Assembly: GCA_018902385.1 (NCBI GenBank)
Contig: JABSSW010000040.1
Span: 372,001 to 436,000, forward strand
DNA length: 64,000 nt
Direction: 5' to 3'
DNA from: Physcia stellaris
Taxonomy: Eukaryota; Ascomycota; Lecanoromycetes; Caliciales; Physciaceae
In this document: one piece after another, positions 1,091 through 64,000 of the stretch
Layout: every line of letters begins with the position of its first letter
Position numbering within the stretch: position 1 is the stretch's first letter
Position numbers and translations under genes: made by a program
The notes under the pieces: generated by a model
The model's database searches: none
What the model saw: the letters and a program-made list of their open reading frames with translations, nothing else
What the model was told of the DNA's origin: nothing

Positions 1091-1209
1091 TGTTGAAGTA
1101 GGAATAGTTCATTGATTATATCGATGATAATGCTAAGTGTACAGGATTTGGAGTTGAGGTTTTCACCAGGCTTCCTGCAACCCTAACCCTAGATGAGCTA
1201 ACTGCAACA
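1091..1209 (-). repeat. 3' LTR of the copia element
   Basis: This 119-bp repeat matches 6789-6907 with five visible differences, all G/A transitions. It ends with TGTTG/CAACA inverted termini. Unlike the interior it retains normal composition and carries the telomere-like string CCCTAACCCTA near its right end. It is the downstream LTR because the polypurine tract lies just inside it. Confidence 0.92.
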
Positions 1210-1219
1210 CCCCCCCTCG
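1210..1219 (-). other. Polypurine tract and adjacent palindrome
   Basis: On the minus strand the sequence GAGGGGGG directly precedes the LTR start TGTTGCAG, as expected for the plus-strand primer of an LTR element. Next to it, 1217-1233 is an almost perfect palindrome (CTCGAACC, one spacer base, GGTTCGAG). These positions fix the orientation of the element. Confidence 0.75.
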
Positions 1220-1750
1220 AACCGGGTTCGAGTAAAGTCTACTGACGAAAATGAATTTATCACTCAAAATTGATGTGAATCTCATTTTACGCTGTAAAAC
1301 ATTCCAATATTCAATGTAATGATTTAAAATCGAAAAAATTCAACATGCTATGACAACAATACAACGCTTTTGAATTTAATTCATGCTCAACATTTGAATA
1401 AAACAACGAAACTTGATAAAAATCAGAATTTTGATAAATTCGTCGACAAACATGTTTTGAATAAAAATGTAATGTAAACGAATTCGATTAGTTTTGATTT
1501 CGTTTCGAATGTAATGATAAACGATATCGACGTGTTTGATGCGATCATGATAAATTGAATTTTCGACGAAAATTTTGACATTTTGATTATCGATATGTAT
1601 TTGTAAAATAACGTATTTGTCACGTTGATGATAAATGTGTAAATCGACGAACAAATTTCGAAATCATGTGATTTTTTTAATAATCGTCGAAATGATTATA
1701 TATTTTGCAACGCATGTGAAAGTGATCACGATAAATTGAAATTTTGACAT

Positions 1751-2296
1751 TCAATTTATTGATTTTTCATTGAGAATGAAAACGTAAACGTCAATTGATT
1801 TTTTAATGATCAAATCGTTATCGTAATTGACGTCACAATAGTTTTGTAAATCAAAATTTTTTTTTTCGTAAACGATATTTAAACGATCAATGATATTGAA
1901 ATAATCGAAAATATCGTTTGCGACGTTCATGTGAATTTTGCTTGAATTTTGAACGAAACGATTGACGATGAAAATGACGTTAAAAACATTTGATTTGATT
2001 TCGATCATGACAAACATGACGAAATCAATTTTGATTTGATACAATTTTGTGTCGAATTCAAAAATTTGATTTTCGTTAAAAATCGAAACGAAATTCGTTC
2101 GCATTGAAATATGTATTGATTTGATTTCATTTCGATCAAATTTGATGACAATGCGTTTGATGTAAATTTTTTGATTGAATCGAATTTTTTTGCGATCACG
2201 ATTTTTGATGACGATCATATTTAAATAAAAATTAATTGATTTTATATCAATCATTTCGAAAACAACGAACAATTTTTTTTTGATTTTGTTGATCAT
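1751..2296 (-). pseudogene. Decayed copia RT C-terminus and RNase H
   Basis: This 181-codon open stretch follows the copia layout after the RT core. It has a relic of the conserved RDR..R..F.QK.YI region, the YQ and RF.QN.SK.H segments, and a D.NY.ND..IKKS..VYVF segment typical of the RNase H start. It contains no Gly, Pro or Trp. It stops at TGA (1751-1753) exactly where the family has Trp, and the same frame continues beyond the stop with SK.Q, as in related elements. It is a relic, not a functional gene. Confidence 0.8.
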
Positions 2297-2447
2297 GACG
2301 ATAAAAAAAACAATGATTTTGATATCGTCAATTCAGAAAATGAATATGAAATTCTTGAAATTTTTCGTCGTTGCAAAGATGTTGTGATCGGCATGTAAAT
2401 GATGCAAATTCAATTTTTCAAAAAAAAAAATCTGTTAAACGTTCGTA

Positions 2448-2696
2448 TCATAAACGAAAAAATTGTTTAAAATCGTATAAAATTTTGTGAAATTTGCAAA
2501 TTCTTTTTTCGTTGTAATTTTCGAAATATTTAACGTATATTTTTGTATCGATGAAATCGTAAAAAAAAACAATTTTGACGTTCATTTGTTCGATTTTCAA
2601 ATTCAAAAATGCGACGATGACGAACAAAACTCGAAAAATCATTGATTTGATCACGAAAACAAAAATTTGTTCGAAATCAATGTCATATTGTTGCAA
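2448..2696 (-). pseudogene. Decayed copia reverse transcriptase core
   Basis: The 82-codon frame retains the copia RT signature: a QQYDIDFEQIF start, a QMNVK.VFF.DFID segment (family: QMDVKTAFLNG.LDE) with the first catalytic Asp region, IYVKYFE, and KILYDFKQFFRL (family: KALYGLKQ.PR.W). It ends in TGA (2448-2450) precisely at the conserved Trp. No Gly, Pro or Trp codon remains. It lies upstream of the RNase H relic on the same strand. Confidence 0.82.
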
Positions 2697-3796
2697 ATAA
2701 TTTTTGACAACTCATCGAATTTTGTAACGAATTTTTTTTTTTCGACATTTCGTTTGATTTTGAAAATTCATTTATCGTTTAAAAATTTTCGATCATCGAA
2801 TGTACGATTTATCAAAATTCATGTATTGTTTTTGTTCAAAAACTGAATTTCGTTTTCGACGACGTTCATTCAATTTGACGAATTTGAATTATTTATGATT
2901 TGTGTTCATGTATTGAATTCGTCGTCATTCATATTGTTGAAAGCAACGAAATTTTCAAAATTGATGACGTTTTGAATTTCGATAAAATCAATTAACAATG
3001 AAATTGAATTGACAACGCATAAATCATTGTGTTATTCGAAAAAACGTTCGACGAAAATAAAATTTTTTTCGATACAATTCAAAAAAGCGACGAAATCGTC
3101 GAAAAAATGTTTTCAATTTGTCAGTAATTTTGTCATAACAACGTTAAATACTTTTGTTGTATTGTTTAATATAGACGAATAAACAAATGAATTCATAAAA
3201 AAATCAATTTGCTTGATTTGACGATTTGAACGCATGATGATAAATTTATGAAAAATGATTGAAAATATGTTTTATGAAATTTTTGATGCGAATTTGATTT
3301 TGCGAAAAATAATCGATTTATTTTTGAAAATGATAATTTTCGAAACAATAACGTTTGAAACTGTGCTTGAAATAATAAAACATTTTTTTTGTTTAAATGC
3401 AATGATTTCGCTAAAAATCGTGTATTGTTTAAAAATTGCAACATCGTAAAAATCGACGTTTTTGATTTTGCGTATTTCGTTGTCGTTAAAAAATAAAATT
3501 CATACACGATAAATCGTGTCGTCGTCGTATTCAATGAAAATGTTTTTGTCATCGCGAAATTCGAAATGATTTTTGTGTTTAAAATTTTTGACGACGTACG
3601 CGATGATTTCAAACGAATGCAAATTAAAAAAATTTGAAACAATGTCGATAAATTTTTCAATAAAATTTATGTCGTCAAAAAAAATCGAAAAACGACGTTT
3701 TTTGATATATGTCATGATCAAAATGACGTTTAATCACAGAAAATCAAATATGTCGTCGTCAAATAACGTCGTTTGAATCATGATTGTAATCGTACG

Positions 3797-4279
3797 TTAA
3801 TGAATTTCAACGATTTCATTTACATTTTGAACGTCGATAAAAACGAATTCGAATAAAATGTTTTTGAAAATCAAAAATGCATCGAATTTGATATTGCGAA
3901 ATTCGAAATCATAATCAATTTTGACGATTTTGATTTTCACATTGTATTGATTTTTCATCAAAAAAATATAAATCGAAAAATAAATCATTCATTTTGCTTT
4001 GTTTTTGATCGTATAAATATCGATTTTTCGACATCAATCACAAATGAACGTGATGTAACACGTTTTTTGTTCGTAATCGAATATCGAAATAAATACAAAA
4101 TCAATATGTATGATGTGAAATTTTTTTGAAATTCGTTTGATGTTTTCGTTTCGATTGAATTTTCGTTTAATTTTGATTTGTTTGTATATATCGCAATGAT
4201 TATTCGAAACGTCGTCAACATAATTGATTTGCAAAAATTTAAAATATATTCGAAAAACAAAATAATTAAAATGTTTCAA
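3797..4279 (-). pseudogene. Decayed copia integrase
   Basis: Two neighbouring minus-strand stretches keep integrase landmarks. In 4034-4279 the relic FHIIHIDF...YITFICD matches the copia IN start around the first catalytic Asp. In 3797-3988 the relic KIDYDFEFRNIKFDAFL...FEF...QNVNEIVEIH corresponds to the DNG.EF.N second-Asp segment and the QNG..E third-acid segment. The frame is broken between them. The position upstream of RT supports copia order. Confidence 0.68.
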
Positions 4280-6767
4280 TCGTTTATGTCATGTAAATAA
4301 CGAAATAAACAAAACAATGATCAAAACAATCATTTGACTGTTTTGCAACATAATTGCATAAAAATCATTTTCGCTCAAAAACGTTCAAACAACAAAAACA
4401 TCACGATTTCTAAACACGTGATCGAATGTGTTTCAATGAATATTCTGTTTTTCGAAAACAAATATCGAAAAAAAATTGACAAACGAATCGAACATGTAAT
4501 ACATCGATAAAATGAAAATTTCAATGATTTTTTCATTTGATAAAACGATAAAAAATTGTATCATGTTCAAATTTGAAATCGAAAAACGAATTTTATCGAC
4601 GATTAAAACGATAAATTCGTAAAAACGAAATGATTGAATAAAATGTTTGTTTTTGCAAACATGAATATTTGTTTTCGAATCAACGTATCACAACATGTTG
4701 TTGATCGTTCGAACAATCGATAAAACACGTTTTCAATTGACGATCGATTGTAATTGTCAATTCATTTCGTTTTTAACGTAATCGAGCATGTTTTTGTTTA
4801 ATCAACTTTTGTATGCAATGTTGAAATTTTGTCAAAAACATCGTTTGAAATCATGATAAATTTGATTTGTTTCAACGCATTTAAAAAAAAAATATCACGA
4901 TGATTTCACATATTTGAAAAATTTTGACGTGAAAATGAACGTTTGATCATCGTGAATACGTGTTCGCTTGTTTGACGATTTCGAAATTTGTGTGATCATG
5001 ACGACGAATTTGAAAAATTGAACGATTTTTGCATAATGACGAAATTCGAAACAAAACTTATTGACATTCGTATTGAATTCGATTCAATTGTTGCGTTGTT
5101 GTTGAACGAAAAAAAAATGAACGTGTTTCATTTTGACGAACAAAATGTTTTGACAAATGACGAATATAATAATGAGAATTTCGACATTCATAATGATGAA
5201 ATCATTTTGAATAAATTTCACGACAACGACGAACGATTCAACGTTATTCGATTTTGAATTGAAATTTAAAAATGTAAAAATGATATTCATGACGAAAACG
5301 AACGTTTTTTTTTTTGAATTGAAATGCAATAACGATTCAACGTTTCAAAAAAATGTTTTGATTCAAAATAATGAAACGATGTGAAACATGCACGAAATTA
5401 AATAAAAAATTATGTGTTTTGATGATTTCAAAATTATGACGATTTTGAACGATTTTCAAATCAAACGTTTTGACGACGACATGTTCGTTCGTATAATTTT
5501 TCGTTTTGATTTCATTTGTCATGAAATTTTTGATAAAACGAATTCGTATGAATTTCGTGATAATTTATTCAACATTTAAAAATTGAAAATGATTTTTGAT
5601 TTCAAATTTTCAAAAATAATAATTTTCGAAACGATACAATGATTTGATGTAAATCAAAAATTTGATCGAATGATTTTTCATTTTGATTTGAATACGTTTA
5701 TTAAAAAAATGATATGAAATGATTATCGTGTTTGTTTCGTTTCATGCATTTTTTTATTGTCAAAACTTATAAACAATTGTGTAACGACGACGAAAACAAA
5801 TGCGTCAACTGTTTGATTTTTTCGAAATGACGATCGTATGATCTATTTCGAAACAAACAATGAAATAAAATAAACAAAAAATGTATTGATATGTGTATCG
5901 AAAATAAATTGAAAATAATATAACGAGCAATGAAAAATACAAAAAATTGATAAAAAAAAAATAACGAAATCAATTATTTGTTTTGTAAAAAACAAATCAA
6001 TGACACGATTTTCGAATTCAAAATTTCGTTCAAATTTTCATTTATGCGATACGAAAAAATCAACAAACGATCAAACGTTTGAACGAACAAAATAAACGAA
6101 TGTTCAAACATTCGAATCAAATGTAATTTAACAATAAATTAATAAAAAAAATGAAATTTAATGTAAAAACATAATTTTCAACAATGAAATTTCATCGAAA
6201 ATAACGTCGATTCGAATATGAAAATTCGATTTGAAAAATTTAACGCAAATAACGCATTCAATTTGATAAAAAAATGTGCGCAAATGTTCAAAATTTGCGT
6301 GTGAAATTCGAATCGAAATTTTGAATGACGATTGATGTTGATAATCGTTTGAACAATAATTCAAACATAAAACATCATGATGAAATGTTTTGACGACACG
6401 TAAATAAAACAGAATGTTATAATGATTTAAGTATCGCAATGAATCATGATATCGATCAAATGAATATTTTGCGCACGATGTTGAAATGATAAAAAAAATG
6501 TAAATCGTTGTTTCGACGACGAAAATCATCGAAATTCGTTGAAAAATTAAAAAACGATATGTATACGCGAATTAATTCATGTAATAAAAACAACAAAATA
6601 ATGAATCAATAAAAAAACAATAAATTCAACGTTGAAAATCGAAAAAATTCGTTTGATTCATTTTTTTCAAAAAATGTATTCGATTTCGTAAAAATTGCGC
6701 ACGACGATGCAAAAATCATTGAAAAAATGAAAACGACGAAACGAATAATGTTTGATTGATAAAAAGC

Positions 6768-6788
6768 GAGCTGTTCGAGCTCATAATT
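6768..6788 (-). other. Primer-binding-site candidate (initiator-Met half-tRNA type)
   Basis: Read on the minus strand, the 5' LTR ends CAACA, followed after two A residues by TTATGAGCTCGAAC. The first bases are complementary to CUCAUAA, the anticodon loop of eukaryotic initiator tRNA-Met. This is where the cleaved half-tRNA primer of Drosophila copia ends. The rest of the match is imperfect, and the site also contains a small inverted repeat (GAGCT/AGCTC). Use of this primer is an inference. Confidence 0.5.
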
Positions 6789-6907
6789 TGTTGAAATAGA
6801 AATAATTCATTGATTATATCGATGATAATGCTAAGTGTACAGGATTTGGAGTTGAGATTTTCACCAGGCTTCCTGCAACCCTAACCCTAGGTGAGCTAAC
6901 TGCAACA
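6789..6907 (-). repeat. 5' LTR of the copia element
   Basis: This is the partner of 1091-1209, of identical 119-bp length and flanked by the second CGATA duplication. Four of its five differences from the other LTR are G-to-A here and one is G-to-A in the other copy. All fall in GG or AG contexts, so all are CpC or CpT changes on the complementary strand. Confidence 0.92.
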
Positions 6908-6912
6908 CGATA

Positions 6913-31248: not shown

Positions 31249-31931
31249 AGGGAGCGTCTATCCGGACTTGAGATCGCTATTTGGACTTGTCAAGATTTTT
31301 ATATTCGATATATCCGGTTTGCAGCACTCACTTTTCAACTCTCGATTTCATTTATTTATTCATTTACTATTCATTTGCGTCGCGATTCAAATTTCTGCTA
31401 TGATCGTTTCTTTTGATACGATCACGAAATTTTTTATTGTTAACGAGTATGAGTCGAAAACAATTTTCAATGTTTTGCTTTTGTCGTCGTTGAAAAAAAT
31501 ATGATTCATGCAATACGATGAAAAATTTATTGATTTCACGACGATCACAATCAATTTAATGCGAATTATCATCGAACGCAAACGAAAAATCAACATCAAT
31601 ACAAATATCAACAAACGAACGAAAATTGATTAAAAAATGAAAAACATGCGAAAAATAAAAAACAAACGAAAAAAAAATTTTTGCGATCGTGCAAATTTCA
31701 TTTGATTGATCGAAATTCTGTTGTTAAATAAAAAATCGAATTTTTTTACATCAATATCAATGCAATTGATTTATTCACGTTAAATTCAATTCGATAACAT
31801 GTACAATCGTGATATGATATTGAATCGTTCAAAATCGAACATTTGAAATCGTATGTTGCAAATCGAATATATCGAATATAAAAAACTTGACAAATTCAAA
31901 TAACGATTTCAAATTCGAATAGACGTTTTCT
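31249..31931. mobile_element. Inverted-repeat DNA element, copy A (MITE-like)
   Basis: This is a 683-bp non-coding element with terminal inverted repeats of about 77 bp (left end AGGGAGCG, right end CGTTTTCT). It shares its whole body with copy B: 31398-31931 matches 35206-35749, interrupted only by different levels of mutation. The left inverted repeat is unmutated and the right one is heavily AT-converted. It lacks any transposase frame, so it is non-autonomous. Confidence 0.78.
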
Positions 31932-32090
31932 ATTATTAAAAAGCGTTTATTCGAATTTGAAATCGCTATTTGAACTTGTTAAAATCTTTATATTCGATAT
32001 ATTCGATTTGCAACATTCATTTTTCAATTTTCGATTTCATTTATTTATTCATTTATTATTCATTTGCGTCGCGATTCAGATTTTTGTTAT

Positions 32091-32262
32091 TGTTACAATC
32101 GTGCGTGATAATCGATATTCATTAAACGAAAATTCTAAAATTAGAAAAAAAAGATGTACAGATGAAAATCGAAATGTTTGATGTAAAATTTGCGAATGTC
32201 AAAATTCTAATCACGTGTTTCTTTCAACTTTGCGACAATGTTTTCAGAACACGCTCGTAACA
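32091..32262 (-). repeat. LTR of the nested element (probable 3' LTR)
   Basis: This 172-bp repeat has TGTTAC/GTAACA inverted ends. The visible differences from 35034-35205 are C/T or G/A transitions in CpT (or ApG) context. Confidence 0.82.
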
Positions 32263-32667
32263 CTATTTTTTTTTCTTTGCAAATTTCGTTTCGAAGCGAT
32301 TATTTTTTTCATATCTTTTTCATCGATCGACGATTTCAGAAATATCGTTGATTGAAACGTGAATAATTGAACAAATCATTGCGAAAACTGAAATGATCGA
32401 AACAAATACAACAAACATGATTTGAAAACGAAAATCGAAAAAACGACGAAAATGTAAACGAAGACGTAAATCGAAATCATGCGAATGAAAATCTTGATGA
32501 AAATCTTAATTGCAAAAATGAAAATCTTGATTGCAAAAAAATGAAAAAAATGTCTAACTTTTTGTATGATGAAATGATCGTTTTTTTTGACAAAATCGAA
32601 ACAAAACAACAGAACGATATCGATTTCGCAAACGTATGTTGCTGAAAATTCTTCGAATTCGAATTTT

Positions 32668-33603
32668 TCAAACTTTGATTAATCGATGTTTTTTGATTGA
32701 TTGCAAACAAAAAATATGCGATGATTCGAAATTGATAAAAAAAATTGAATCGATCAGATTGACGATTTTCAAAACTATGTGAAAAAAAAAACGATTTTGA
32801 TATTGACGTAAATCAAATGATTTCGACTTTTCAGCAAACATGCGACGAAAATCATGAATTGTAAAATACGATTTCGAGAACGATTTTCGAAGCAACGAAA
32901 ATGTTGCGAACGAAATAAACAACGAACATGATGTCGATGCAATTTTCACACGTTTTAATATGCGTTTAAATGTAAATAATGAAAAACGCGAACGCATTTG
33001 TGTAATGACTGATTTTCGAAACATTGTTGTAAATGTTTCGAACGAAATAAATGAAAAAATAAATGATGCAATTGTTACAAAAATGACGAACGAACTAAAT
33101 GAATTTCTCGTCTGTTCTGAAAATGTGACAAATTTAAATATCGAAAATTTTGTTGTTGTTTTTGATGAGATTGATAAAATTGTTGAAATTGAAATGTTTG
33201 TTGAAATTGAAATGTTGCTTTTATTTTTTTCTTTATTGAAATTTCGTTTCGAAACTTTAATTATTTCACTTTTCATTGATTTGATGTGATGTTGACAAAC
33301 ATGTTCGTGAAACTTGTTGTTCGATTCGAAAATTTTCTCGCAATGTTTGCAAACGACTTTCTTGCAAATTGATTGATTATGTTGCAACAAACGAATCAAA
33401 AACGAAAAAAACGCGAAACAATTGAGACACGAATGATATTGCGACGAAAAAGTAAATAAAATAAACGAATTCGATGCGAAAATCTCGAATTTCGAAAAAA
33501 AAAATCTGCAAAAAATTTCGTAAAAAATGCAATGATCAAGATTTCTAGTCACTCGCTTAAATTTTTTTTGACGATTTCGCTTTGATTTTGTTTCTTGTAT
33601 CAA
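32668..33603 (-). pseudogene. Decayed gag-like frame with a C2H2 zinc-finger motif
   Basis: This 311-codon minus-strand open frame includes CKHCEKIFESNNKFHEHVCQHH, a C..C(x12)H(x3-4)H arrangement seen in the nucleic-acid-binding part of some fungal retroelement proteins. The rest is Ser/Phe/Ile/Lys-rich, as expected after C-to-T mutation. There is no Gly, Pro or Trp. The frame probably survived because this mutation type leaves CAA and CAG codons intact. No functional protein is expected. Confidence 0.55.
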
Positions 33604-33899
33604 ATCAATGCAAAATCACGTAAACAATCAAATAACAAAATCAACAAATCTGACTTTCGATATTGATGTTGACGTTGTCGAAATTGTTGCAAAAAATTCG
33701 CAATTTCGCAAAACAGATTGAATTTCTAAATATCGCACAGAAAAGTTGCATCGAAATAATCGAAATTTGCAACAATTGAAATGAATTTGACGATTTCGAA
33801 AATTTCGAACTCGATTCGCTTGACGATTTCGAAAGTTTTCAATTTTGTTTGTTTGACGATTTTTTTCATGATTTCTGAAATTTCGAGTTTCGCTGTTTC

Positions 33900-34810
33900 G
33901 AAATGTAAAACGAGCGAACAATCAAATGATTTCTGAAAATGCTTTTTGAACGATTTCTTACAATTTCACTGAAATATCGATAGATAACAATGAATACATT
34001 TCGCTGTAACATTGTCGTAGTTTTGAAAGTCAACGACGATTATTAGCTTTTTAGCTCTATTATCAACAAAAGTCGTTGATTCGTCTCAATTCTGTAAACT
34101 CGCTAATTTGTCTTCGTATGTGTTCAGAAATTCGACGAGTGAAACAAAAACAAAAAAAAATTCGATTTTCGACTCTGCAACAATGTTTTCTTCGTAAAAT
34201 TGTAAAGCGAATGAGCAATGAAATAATTTCTGAATATGTTTTTTTAAAAATTCTTTGCAATCATTGCAGAATAATTCTAGCGAGCAATGAATACATCTTG
34301 CAATGACTTCACATCAATCATCGTCATTAAATTCAGCGACGATCATGATTTCGTTGTTAAAACTTTTAAAACGATTTCAATTTCAATTATCGATTTGTAA
34401 ACTTGTCAGTCGCTCTTTGTATGTGCTCAAAAATTTGACGAAAAAAGTGAAAATTGTTTTCGATGAAGATTTTCGATACAAATTCATGACGTGCATTTTC
34501 GATCGAAAACAAAAAAAACGCGTCGATTTGACTTGCAAACGCGTATGTTTTGATCAAATATCTCAAATTGTGATGAGAATGCTCGTGCAAATTCTGAAAA
34601 AAATGAATTGTTGACGAACGAATCGATGAATCGTTTCGAACGAAATTGAAAAAAACGCGTTAATTTGACTGACGAACGCGTATAATTCAAAATCTTTTTC
34701 GAATTGTAATGAATAAAATACTCGTGCAATCGTTGAAGAAATTGCCGAACAAATAAATAAATAAATAAATGTTGATTGCTCGTGCGATTGTTGACGAGCG
34801 AATTCAATTA
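33900..34810. repeat. Diverged tandem repeats inside the nested LTR element
   Basis: Several related units recur. 34507-34620 and 34648-34752 share ACGCG, GACTTGC/GACTGAC, ACGCGTAT, CTCGTGCAA and further bases at similar spacing, with a third partial unit near 34774. 33910-34000 and 34210-34300 share TTTCTGAA.ATG and AGCAATGAATACAT-like strings. Minus-strand relics include RLHEYFIHY, again zinc-finger-like, suggesting an array of finger modules. The boundaries are approximate. Confidence 0.45.
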
Positions 34811-35033
34811 AAAACGATCAATGAAATTGTACGATCTGTTGAATAAAATCGTATTGATGAACAATTGATTTTGCAATTGATAAATCAAATATCTGATTCT
34901 TGATTGATTGATTCGATAAAATCGTTGATTGATGATTTCACTCAATCGTGTTGCTTTTCTTCGATCACTGATGATTAAAAAAACGTATACAAGTACACGT
35001 TTTCTGTTGAATAGAAATGAAATTTTAGAATAA

Positions 35034-35205
35034 TGTTACAGTCGTGCGTGATAATCGATATTCATTAAACGAAAATTCTAAAACTAAAAAGAAAAAATGT
35101 ACAGATGAAAATCGAAATGTCTGATGTAAAGTTTGCGAATGTCAAAATTCTAATCACGTGTTTTTTTCAGTTCTGCGACAATGTTTTCAGAACACGCTCG
35201 TAACA
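35034..35205 (-). repeat. LTR of the nested element (probable 5' LTR)
   Basis: This 172-bp partner of 32091-32262 is followed directly by ACTATGATCG, which resumes the copy-B sequence. Confidence 0.82.
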
Positions 35206-35859
35206 ACTATGATCGTTTTTTTTGATACGATCACGAAATTTTTTATTGTTAACGAATATGAGTCGAAAACAATTTTCAATGTTTTGTTTTCATCGTCGTT
35301 GAAAAAAATATGATTCATGCAATACGATGAAAAATTTATTGATTTTACGATGATCATAATCAATTCAATGCGAATTATCATCGAACGCAAACGAAAAATC
35401 AATATCAATACAAATATCAACAAGCGAACGAAAATTGATTAAAAAATGAAAAACATGCGAAAAATAAAAAGCAAACAAAAAAAAAAAATTTTTTGCGATC
35501 GTGCAAATTTCATTTGATTGATCGAAATTTTGTTATTAAATAAAAAATCGAATTTTTTTTACATCAATATCAATGCAATTGATTTATTCACGTTAAATTC
35601 AATTCGATAACATGTACAATCGTGATATGATGTTGAATCGTTCAGAATCGAACATTTGAAATCGTAAAATATGCTGCAAGCCGAATATACCGGATATGAA
35701 GGGCTTGGCAAGTCCAAATAGCGATCTCAAGTCCGGATAGGCGCTTCCTAAAGTAAACAAACTTGCAATCACGCTAAAGCGCGGCACGGAGATTCGGCGA
35801 AACCCGTCATTCGCTCTTTGTTGATACTGAACATTCTCCGTAAACACACTTTCACAGAC

Positions 35860-59430: not shown

Positions 59431-60231
59431 TTTGCGGACTGCAACAGAAAATCAAAACATCAATATATGAAAATTGACATGCATAAGGAAGCTTTCAGCG
59501 TCCAGCGCAAGACTAACAACAATATAATGCCGTGTGAGAAAGATCGCATTACACGAAAAAGATCAATCTTCGCATTAGACGAAGACAATGGAAGTAAGAA
59601 GAAAGACAGTTTGCGCTGTCTGCGTGGGAGGTGGATGTTTCGAGGTAGACGGACAGGCTGGACTTAATAAGGTCGATCGCTGCAGGGTTGGCTGATGAGT
59701 CGGACCATGGATGACTTGGTCCCAAACGTCTCATATGGCAGACCACGGATGAAATGAGCGAGTAGCAGGTGCCTTTCCAGGCTGCGCAACGGAGCGAAAT
59801 GAAAGTGGTTTGGCATTCGGGAATTTTGGTGCGAAGATGAAACAGGGTGAATGGCTGGCTATTCGCGACGAGATTGCAGTGGGACCTCATCACCTGGTAT
59901 AGTACCATTTTCCACGGGGCGTAGCTGTACGCGCGAGTCAAGAAAAAAGAAAGCGAGAAGCATGACTGGGACAGGATGATGGCGAAGTTTTCGCCACCTG
60001 GTTACAGCAGACGGAAAAGATCCAAATTCTGAATAGACTAGTAGAAGGTGCAAGAGAGGACAGGATTGCGTACTTTATCTTTTCGAGGTTTCGATGACGC
60101 TGTGTAAAATGTAGGGATAAAGTGCAATGATAGCTAAAAGGTCCGTTGGACTGGAGTTTGGCAATAGGGATCGTCAGACCTCTTTTTCGCAAGTATCATG
60201 GGCCGTGCTTGGATAGACGTATTATTGGCTA
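59431..60231. other. Promoter side of the hypothetical gene, left flank of the third island
   Basis: The composition is normal until about 60230, after which CpC and CpT fall sharply. Frames here are short and unsupported. Confidence 0.45.
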
Positions 60232-63018
60232 GCTAGACGAAAACAATAAATCTGCAGAAACAAATAAGTACAAAATGTTGAAATTGCAAGCAATGTGCGA
60301 CGCCAAATCTCAAATCACGTTAATTTCAACGTAAAATTAAAGCATAATTCGTTGTCCGATCACATATCATATCAATTATTTATTTGTCAAATTTATTTGT
60401 CAAACATGTTCGTAACACTATTTTTCTTTTTTCGCGAGCGTCGTCTCGACGATTCGTTGTTATTTCGAAATTGAAAAATTTTGTTGAAAATTTTGTCGAT
60501 TGATTTGAATGTTTGCAAAATTCAAAAATTTCACGATCATCATTTTTCATTTTCAAATGTTTCGTTATTGTTTCAAAATTCGATAAAATTTGACAACAAT
60601 TTCTGAAAATGTTTTTGACACGATTCAACTTTTCATGCGACGTAAATTCTGACTGTAAATAACATCGAAACGATAACGAAAACTAGAAATTGCGAAAACG
60701 TTGCGAAAATGAAATCGAAATGAATGTATTGAATTCGAAATTTTCAAATTTTAATCGAATGTAATTTCGATTAATGTCAACATGACGATTTTTTTTCGAA
60801 AACGACGACGATTCATCGAGAAATTTGATTCGTTGACGACGTTTTGAAATATTGAAATCAACGTTTTGAACGATTTTGAATTTGCAATCGTGAAATGAAT
60901 GCGATAAAAATCGTTCATCACGTCGCGAACATTATCAAATTTTTCGTTGTCGACATAATATCATGTTCGATCATGCGATCAATTCGATCAATTGACACGA
61001 TATTGAAAACGATTGTAATGATATCGAAATTTCAAAATATCGTTCATTTTTCATTCGAGATTTTCGTTGATTATGACAAAATCAAAAAATTCATTGATTT
61101 GATTTTCGAATGAATCACGAAAATTTTTGCGCAAAAATCAACAATGAAACACATCGTAAATATGCATGATTTCAAACAATTCGAGTCGATATGAATTGTT
61201 CATACGTTGTAATATTTTGTAAAAATTTAATTTTTTGTTATCGAATTTGTCAAACGATTTGATCGTTTTGATGTTTCGTCAATCGAAAAAAACGAAATTT
61301 TTCTCGACGTATTTTACGATTTTTCGATATTTGTTGATTTGAATTGTTATACGTTTTTGAATCATCTTTGCATGATTTCGTACGTAATTGAGAATATTTT
61401 GCATTGTGTCGATAATATTTTTTGTTTTGACGTGTGAAATGCTATGCAATGATATGATACTACTACATAATTACACGAAAATATCGAAGTGAAAAACAAA
61501 TACATGAAATTTGCAAAAACATATGTAAAAAATTTGATTTTTTGAATGCGTCAAGACGAATTTCGATTCTAACATTCGATGTGATAAAATAACGATATTA
61601 ATTCGATATTAAATTTGTCAAATGTTGAATTCGATGTACGTTCGTCACATTATTTTTCGTTTTTTTTCAGTTTCGTCTCGAAACGATCAATTGAATGTTT
61701 TTGTTTTTAACGAAAAACGTTTTGCGCGATTTAAATATGTTATTGAATGACGTTGAATTGAATGATTGATGAAATAAATAAATAAATTCGAAATGCTGTG
61801 AAATCGATTTCGTTCGCGAAATCGATTCGTCAAATATCGTGAAAACATCAAATCGATTTACGATAAAATGAACAATTTGATCATGTTAATAAAATCATCG
61901 TAACAATGTTTAAAATTTTGATATTTTCGTGTATGCGAAAATTGATGTGTACATTGCATGCGACAAAGCGTGAATGTAATGAATGTCGTGAAAAATGATC
62001 AATTCATACAATTCGTCAAAAATAATTTCGACGAACATTAGTAAACAAACAATTGAACGCGTCAACAATTTTGAAAATTTTTGTTACATCAAATTGATAT
62101 CACGAAACGAACAGTTTGATCATGTCGAAAAAATTTTTATTATCATGATTAACGCGTTGATGTTATCGCATATACAATTTTTGATTCGTACATTGCATTC
62201 AATGAAATATGCACGTATTAAATTTTTTGAAAAACAAATATTTTGAACGAATTTTACAAATAGTTTCGCGTGTCATTAATAAACAATTGAAAATTTTGTT
62301 GACGAACTTGTAAATATTCGAATTTTTTTGACAATTTGCGTTCGCTCATTTCATTGCATGACATTTTACATTATCATTCATTGTTCAATAAAATTTGACG
62401 ACAGTTTTTGAAAATGTTTTTGACACGATTCAATTTTTCATGCGACGTAAATTTTGATTGTAAACAACGCGAAATGATAACGAAACGAATGACAAAAAAA
62501 AAACATTGTTGAAATCAATTTGAAAATGAATTGTAACGAATTCGTTGACAATTTTCTGATCGATCGTAAATAATAAAATTCATGATTTAATCATTTCGCA
62601 AAACAAATTTCGCTGTTTTTGAATTAATTTCGTGAAAAACATCGACGATATTTTGAACATTTTGAAATTCGTCGTCGTCGACGTAATATCACGTTCGATC
62701 GTGAAATTTTCATTCGAATCAATTGTAACGATATTATAATCGATGATAATGATATCGAAATTTCAATATATTATCGAATTTTCATTTCGACATTTCATTT
62801 GCAATAATTGATTTTGAAAAATCGTTATGTTGTTTTTTCAACGAGTTTTTAAAATTTTTTTTCAACAATCAAAAATGAAAAATTGAATGAATGTGCATGT
62901 CGTCGAACAATTTCAATTCATAAACGAAATTTTTTTTTTTGATTATTTTGTATGAATTCAATTTTTTGTCATCGAATTTGTTTGACGAACGAATCGTTTT
63001 TATATGACGACGATTTAA

Positions 63019-63300
63019 TCAAAAATAATTTTTTATTTCAAAATTTATAAACAAACGAAATTTGTTGATTCGAACAATCATTTTTTGTTTTGCATCGACA
63101 ACATTGATTTTGACATATTCGATGATACGATTTATTTTTTCGACAATAAATTCGTTTTGTTTAATCAACAAACGTTTTTTTGTGATTTCGTAATCATTTA
63201 AATTTGATTCGAAAATCATTCGAAAATGATATTCTTTATTGATAAAAAATGAAATAAATTTGATGATTGTTGAAACATCGTTGTTGTCAACGAATTTCAT
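63019..63300 (-). pseudogene. Decayed gypsy integrase C-terminal region
   Basis: The 93-codon relic has a KFVDNNDVSTIIKFISFF...YHFRM pattern matching the EF..NN...T..SPF....G..PR region of Ty3/gypsy integrases. A VEKINRIIEYVKINVVDAKQK helix and an INKFRLFINFEIKNYF segment follow, corresponding to the A..QK...A...R...F.VGD region. It contains no Gly, Pro or Trp. Confidence 0.7.
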
Positions 63301-63459
63301 TATATTTATTCAATCAATTCAATCGTTTTGACGATAATTGCAATACAAACGTAATCGAATTTCGATATTTTGATTGATTCGTTCGATTTGATCATCAATT
63401 TCAAATTGAAAAACAATGAACAATTTACATTTGATTTTTAATCGTTTACAAAAAATTTT

Positions 63460-63666
63460 TCAAACGCGATTTACGAATTGATTATCTCGATTTGAAATAA
63501 TGAAAAAAAATAATTCATGAATACGAAATACGTAATGTATCAATATTTTTACACAAATTTGAATTGTCAAATCATCGTCATCGATTACGCAAAAAACGTA
63601 ATGTCGTTTTTTGATCAAGCGATCGATAATAATACAAATGACATTGTTGTTTTTGAAATCAAACAA
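63460..63666 (-). pseudogene. Decayed gypsy integrase core
   Basis: The relic ICIIIDRLIKKRHYVFC and IHELFFFIISNRDNQFVNRV corresponds to the VVVDRLTK..HF.P and LHGLP..IVSDRD.QF.S.FW blocks, with both core Asp residues in place. The frame ends at TGA (63460-63462), exactly where the family has Trp. Confidence 0.78.
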
Positions 63667-64000
63667 TTCGATTATGAAATTTATCGATATATCAATTCAT
63701 CGTTGACTAAAAATCGACAATGAAATTAATAATTCGTGACGATTATCGTGTGAAAACTTCGATCGTTGATATTTGTGACAATTACGAATATAACGTTTGA
63801 TGAATAATTTCATATTAAATCAATAATAATAACGTTTAATGAATTTTTCAATACGATTCATGTTCGAATGTGCACAGAAAAATTGATCGTGAACGTCACA
63901 AATTATTTCAATCATAAAATTTAATCGATTTGATATTCAAAAATTTTCGTTTTTAAATAAAATTTCATTTCGATTCGAGCAAATTCGCAAATTTATTTTT

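Follow-up and report, generated by a model that had tools for sequence, protein, structure and literature searches.

Which process removes cytosines from a transposon in two sequence contexts and leaves most of them standing in the other two? The question is raised by a copia retrotransposon (1091..6907, minus strand) in a 64-kb stretch of DNA from Physcia stellaris, a lichen-forming fungus (Lecanoromycetes, Caliciales, Physciaceae); this whole stretch, contig C40:372001-436000, is called the window below. We scored CpC and CpT (together CpY) on both strands by counting CC, CT, GG and AG. Between 2041 and 2280 (A82 C26 G32 T100) we found 12 CA, 14 CG and no CC, CT, AG or GG, a recount identical to that of the original prediction, while in 20,000 same-base shuffles the four scored dinucleotides averaged 28.6 and never fell below 11. 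The depletion extended through the copia interior at 1251..6780 (53 observed; shuffle mean 713, minimum 663; 500 shuffles here and for the next two regions), and returned at 31301..35700 (180 observed; mean 633, minimum 592) and at 60201..64000, where it continues past the window end (60 observed; mean 514, minimum 466). Delimited by CpY density, the islands cover 1251-6850, 31301-35700 and everything from 60201 onward; they are separated by ordinary composition and make up about one fifth of the window (13.8 of 64 kb).

Across four 1-kb bins from 2001 to 6000, symmetric odds were 0-0.03 for CpC and 0.07-0.11 for CpT, with 1.28-1.45 for CpA and 3.31-3.82 for CpG, and TpA was lowered rather than raised (0.30-0.42). 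A single rule had been proposed for the copia interior and both further islands; all three are indeed depleted, but in the second one CpC is nearly absent and CpT only partly lost (odds 0.31-0.53 in the three inner bins). A classical index of repeat-induced point mutation (RIP), comprising product, substrate and composite values and used with the thresholds of that index, marked 0 of the 127 index windows across 1-64000 despite the three islands. The standard index misses this damage because a CpY target nearly reverses the usual CpA rule.

We then examined 52 transposon loci, including the window's own copy, in a genome assembly of 43.97 Mb in 147 contigs, which differs somewhat from the published P. 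stellaris genome of 46.57 Mb, 184 scaffolds and 43.3% G+C (GC) content (PMC7513301). Core GC was below 0.35 in 41 of the 52 loci (23-35% GC), and in every one of these 41 the CpY share of cytosines was 0-0.26 (median 0.08) and the CpA share 0.41-0.54. The TpA/ApT ratio was likewise low throughout (0.30-0.55), and none of the 41 loci reached 0.89 or above, on which grounds classical CpA-directed RIP, or an even mix, was rejected.

To follow individual sites, 21 damaged copies from three families were aligned with less-mutated relatives, namely the copia loci L013 (3 copies) and L014 (12 copies) and the RVT_1 locus L065 (6 copies; L077, a two-block match, was excluded); the remaining low-GC loci matched a less-mutated relative only in part, or not at all, within the set of loci compared. 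Counted on both strands, C-to-T conversion reached 6134/6336 (97%) at CpC and 6164/7417 (83%) at CpT, as opposed to 628/8490 (7%) at CpA and 239/7110 (3%) at CpG, so that CpA-to-TpA is not the main change. C-to-T change on both-strand counts was borne out in 21/21 comparisons, and the order CpC > CpT >> CpA > CpG in 20/21, the exception being L013/L018, where CpA (26/478) and CpG (23/421) were level. Damage was lightest in L020 (aligned with L014), which had lost CpC at 226/241 sites, CpT at 214/356, CpA at 6/448 and CpG at 0/343; the most mutated of the same family, L042, had lost 213/214, 283/295, 77/381 and 12/298, respectively. Alignment thus showed the rule in three families, two of them copia and one RVT_1, and composition and TGA stops showed it in further elements.

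Could the CpY deficit simply be the ancestral composition of these elements? In three pairs of GC-normal copies (L066/L067, L016/L017 and L016/L028) the differences came to 1.6-3.9% in each context; because these pairs differ evenly, the deficit is not ancestral. In addition, GC-normal L013, L016, L017, L028 and L065 carry ordinary CpC and CpT, and the same sites read C in GC-normal family members and T in damaged copies. We found no point in favour of an ancestral origin, which the 21-copy alignment led us to reject and to which we assign a negligible probability. The alignment and the flat GC-normal controls together support a repeat-directed C-to-T system with an altered sequence context, as had been proposed from the window.

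A second alternative is that there was no active mutagenesis, and that methylated CpC and CpT in repeats decayed by slow ordinary deamination. C5-methyltransferase genes do exist in this genome, and conversion at CpA and CpG rises slightly in the more mutated copies, as such decay might produce. Set against this, comparison of L014 with L020 yields 446 C>T/G>A changes, only 14 transitions in the reverse sense and a single transversion, whereas the L016 control pairs show C>T/G>A to transversion counts of 33 to 26 and 38 to 32. Slow decay is improbable because other changes would come along with it, and slow neutral deamination was rejected on this transition/transversion imbalance. A mainly one-strand state, which slow decay would not lead one to expect, was also apparent in L014 itself (C20, around 571398-572132), with CC 186, GG 55, CT 182 and AG 175, compared with CC 208, GG 253, CT 200 and AG 217 in GC-normal L013. 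Where L014 has A and L020 has G, 11/12 sites are ApG; over five sister copies the figures are 35/48 ApG, 8 TpG and 5 CpG, with 25 T-for-C sites. We read L014 as a copy damaged mainly on one strand, in which GpG (CpC of the other strand) would have been hit first.

Neighbouring bases had little influence beyond the one directly 3' of the cytosine. The CpT rate was 0.68-0.82 and the CpC rate 0.94-0.98 whatever the base at -2, -1, +2 or +3 (four comparisons), and, sorted by 5' base alone, conversion was 0.94-0.98 for CpC and 0.68-0.78 for CpT with all four bases. CpC followed by a further C was converted at 0.84, compared with 0.97-0.98 otherwise, a lower rate that one would expect if conversion of the middle C came first and left the slower CpT. 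For this genome the target context, governed by the base 3' of the cytosine, stands on firm ground. Enzymes of the AID/APOBEC kind pick their target by the 5' base, in contrast to readers of the C5-methyltransferase type; the scant 5'-base effect therefore fits a methyltransferase-type target reader better than an AID/APOBEC-like deaminase. A single-strand DNA deaminase of that kind, acting on transposon DNA or complementary DNA, might draw on any of the 11 deaminase-like PF00383 matches in the genome, but both strands are affected in 20 damaged copies and a choice by 5' base was rejected by the flat conversion rates. We regard this explanation as very improbable.

The CpY rule leads one to expect nonsense mutations at Trp codons, and in eight oriented comparisons TGG codons had become stops at 74/74 positions (71 TGA, 3 TAA), as against 4/126 for CAA/CAG codons and 0/38 for CGA codons. 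Consistent with this, DDE_1 elements contained 48 TGA and 3 TAA stops in 10/11 matches, introns not excluded, and TGA made up the majority of stops, judged by eye, in damaged RVT_2 and RVT_1 matches (for RVT_1, the best 150 of 527 candidates). A fixed-frame tally over 35 loci (TGA 129, TAG 12, TAA 76), which at face value gives a weaker TGA excess, was not used, since many frames were wrong: minus-strand loci are stored in contig orientation.

Together, these results make it probable that repeat-directed, RIP-like mutation of CpY has struck the transposon copies that form the islands, with a RID/Masc1-family homologue involved. That the process works like RIP is well supported, and the CpA preference of Neurospora-type RIP is lacking here. 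On this account CpC would be converted first and CpT next, with CpA following slowly and CpG hardly at all; homology between copies would be the trigger, mutation would take place in the sexual cycle, and the agent may be a cytosine methyltransferase homologue of the RID/Masc1 family whose 3' specificity has changed.

Several observations weigh against this account or temper it. CpA is a slow target rather than a forbidden one, with conversion of 1-20% that rises in the more mutated copies; the claim that CpA and CpG survive while CpY is nearly exhausted therefore holds for the loss of CpY and not for complete sparing of CpA. Likewise, the paired LTR-like repeats of the second island (31398-31853 and 35207-35666; LTR, long terminal repeat) differ at 7 CpT-type, 8 CpA-type and 2 CpG-type sites and show not one transversion over 456 columns, and because of the CpA-type sites CpA has also been touched there. 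L014, although used as a reference, already carries some of the mutation, and its apparent strand bias is that of one copy only; moreover, the copies are related by descent, so that their counts are not independent events, and all come from one genome. Damage was seen in repeats only, and the flanks of the inspected copies are ordinary, except for an AT-rich flank of L008; yet some multi-copy elements are undamaged. L016, L017 and L028 (C8, C42 and C7) form one copia family with three undamaged copies at 96-100% identity, beside about 40 more matches at 70-90%. Sparing of element ends also differs from copy to copy and follows no fixed rule. In the L014 family (10 comparisons) the outermost 120 bp were converted at rates of 0.32-0.64 and the stretch at 120-400 bp at 0.84-0.96. 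For the L013 family (3 comparisons) the rate was 0.15 over the first 40 bp, then 0.44 and 0.67 in the two bins that follow; it stood at 0 of 3 at 120-159 bp and at 0.77-0.95 past 160 bp. The window's copia copy is spared over roughly 160 bp at its left end and 80 bp at its right end, and in the related copies L002, L003, L004 and L008 the LTR is mostly mutated, L002-L004 adjoining ordinary sequence.

Eight dispersed 5S ribosomal RNA matches of ~119 bp (L043-L050; C2, C12, C14, C15, C59 and C72) keep ordinary CpY, as short repeats would under Neurospora-type RIP, although selection may account for this too; L047, one of the eight, has C-to-T-type changes at three sites, a single CpC and two CpA. 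Once saturated, damaged sister copies resemble one another at 87-97% identity, and L071-L075 and L078 share ~92-95% identity among themselves and ~70-75% with their GC-normal relative. Damaged copies thus converge because of saturation, and the dating of transposon bursts from their identity can therefore mislead.

Which enzyme could read a 3' pyrimidine? A search of the genome with PF00145 returned three C5-methyltransferase genes, two RID-like and one DIM-2-like. RIDa (C5:498816-501703, minus strand) and RIDb (C6:790900-792561, plus strand) both look intact and have a PPCQ motif IV, with an EQT triad in motif VI of the former and an EET triad in that of the latter. The DIM-2-like gene (C3:339969-343325; PF00145 E 3.7e-36) has PCQ and ENV motifs, and the BAH match of its protein scored 18.7 bits, under the cut-off of 30.8. 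EQT and EET triads are marks of the Masc1/RID family (PMC6709928), if not clean ones, as EETAGL occurs in 9 of the 120 matches listed for the RIDa search. PF00145 was the sole domain, without BAH, in the two proteins scanned, P0075 (RIDa) and P0008 (a Heterodermia relative of RIDb). Of 34 chosen sequences, 33 entered an unrooted tree, two of them as long rows, and the tree separates three groups: RIDb and relatives (7 rows, 100/99), RIDa and relatives (14 rows, 100/99) and the Eurotiomycete DmtA-type proteins (11 rows, 98/91). Heterodermia, as P. stellaris, has both types. Searches for relatives took in candidate proteins of about 220-700 residues; among the 120 of 139 matches listed, named RIDa-type sources included Dirinaria, Alectoria, Usnea, Lasallia, Circinaria and several Teloschistales, and the only named organisms among the 74, mostly unnamed, matches of the RIDb search were Heterodermia, Aspergillus candidus and Talaromyces islandicus. 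These hints from sequence suggest that RIDb may be spread more narrowly in lichens than RIDa.

Our first guess for the enzyme, held with less than even confidence, is the EET paralogue RIDb. The Rid protein of Botrytis cinerea, a species with a CpT signature (PMC4352252), is EET-type as well (PMC6709928). The EET triad alone need not set the target, because the DmtA-type proteins of Eurotiomycetes are EET-type too. Somewhat more tentatively still, an EET-type RIDb lineage around Physcia, separate from RIDa, may now be the main mutator and read the 3' pyrimidine. RIDa is a possible but doubtful second candidate, the DIM-2-like protein a rather unlikely one, and some other enzyme more unlikely again. 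It might also be that the same CpY mutation is carried out mainly by a DIM-2-like methyltransferase in heterochromatin, with the RID proteins acting as starters or standing idle. A suitable gene is present, but the faster loss of CpC than of CpT and the large-scale sparing of CpA are unlike an activity in 'all contexts', and we consider this arrangement unlikely. The original prediction had named a diverged RID/DIM-2 type enzyme or another deaminase as the cause: RID-like and DIM-2-like genes were found and a deaminase is disfavoured, while the causal enzyme itself is one that we only infer.

Turning to the features of the window, the copia element is delimited by a direct repeat pair and identified by its LTR letters and RVT_2 reverse transcriptase matches, and it is flanked by a CGATA 5-bp target duplication (1086-1090 and 6908-6912). 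Its left LTR (1091..1209, 119 bp, minus strand) has kept most CpY, as has the sequence onward to about 1250, and its right LTR (6789..6907, 119 bp, minus strand) has kept CpY in the outer 80 bp and is mutated in its inner part; the pair differs at 6 sites, 5 of them RpG to RpA (R, purine) and one a transversion. Two overlapping RVT_2 remnants with TGA stops lie at 2105..2744 on the minus strand (C40:374105-374425 and C40:374400-374744). Several nested inverted and direct repeats lie near the LTR-like pair of the second island. Rfam and transfer RNA scans of the 64-kb window gave 0 and 0 matches.

A survey of 1,239 fungi describes RIP-like defences as sharing a CpA preference (PMC12543289), and the preference in P. 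stellaris is close to a mirror image of that rule, nearly saturated. Nature thus provides a case in which to study how RID-family proteins come by their target; according to a review, no methyltransferase activity of purified RID has yet been seen in vitro (PMC13297926). If RIDb has indeed become the main mutator, the specificity of RIP could evolve through RID-family enzymes, and there would be a form of RIP that lowers TpA, breaks reading frames nearly only at Trp codons and is missed by screens for CpA-to-TpA. The silence of the classical index in this window reveals a blind spot: genomes with a CpY rule would be called RIP-free by it, and RIP-negative verdicts in other fungi may merit a recheck with a CpY index.

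CpT changes are already well known, and the CpC-first, CpA-sparing order appears new within the literature searched. CpC-to-TpT changes are reportedly covered for B. cinerea and Sclerotinia sclerotiorum by Clutterbuck 2011, as cited in PMC8959702. We found no report of CpC-first, CpA-sparing RIP in the open literature searched, to which that source may add relevant data. The excerpts of the P. stellaris genome paper (PMC7513301) contained no RIP analysis, and those of the Cladonia rangiformis paper (PMC12542154) no dinucleotide context. Among lichen fungi, C. rangiformis (PMC12542154) and Endocarpon pusillum (PMC3897900) resemble P. stellaris in their AT-rich damaged transposons, and Cladonia also in having RID and DIM-2 homologues. 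They differ in that Endocarpon passes the classical CpA indices (1.47 and 0.70) and in that Cladonia repeats peak near 16% GC, compared with 23-35% in the low-GC loci of P. stellaris.

Microbotryum and some other fungi with CpG or TpCpG signatures (PMC4352252) share repeat-linked C-to-T change outside the CpA context, but CpG, their target, is the best-spared context in P. stellaris. In Monilinia, CpC-to-TpT double changes accompany classical CpA-to-TpA (PMC8959702); CpC is lost in RIP-affected regions there as here, and CpA-to-TpA is minor in P. stellaris. CpT signatures beside CpA have been reported in B. cinerea, S. sclerotiorum and Magnaporthe oryzae (PMC4352252), in Anisogramma anomala, which has two rid-like genes (PMC10998396), and in Parastagonospora nodorum and Neurospora Tad1 (PMC2621366). 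CpT is described as predominant, with CpA second, in M. oryzae and B. cinerea T4 (PMC4352252), and CpT-to-TpT as dominant in RIP-capable control fungi (PMC7882544). These fungi are like P. stellaris in that CpT-to-TpT is a major change and RID-type genes are present; unlike it, CpA is also a main target in them wherever the excerpts give both contexts, and CpC is not named as one, whereas in P. stellaris CpC comes first and CpA is minor.

A close parallel is the RID-dependent RIP of Neurospora crassa, with which P. stellaris shares repeat-confined C-to-T change on both strands, in transitions only, RID and DIM-2 homologues, and damaged AT-rich islands among normal genes. A strand bias belongs to Neurospora RIP as well, and one P. 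stellaris copy is damaged mainly on one strand. The two part at the target: CpA is preferred in Neurospora (PMC12543289, PMC4352252) and TpA rises there, whereas in P. stellaris conversion stands at 97% for CpC, 83% for CpT, 7% for CpA and 3% for CpG, and TpA falls.

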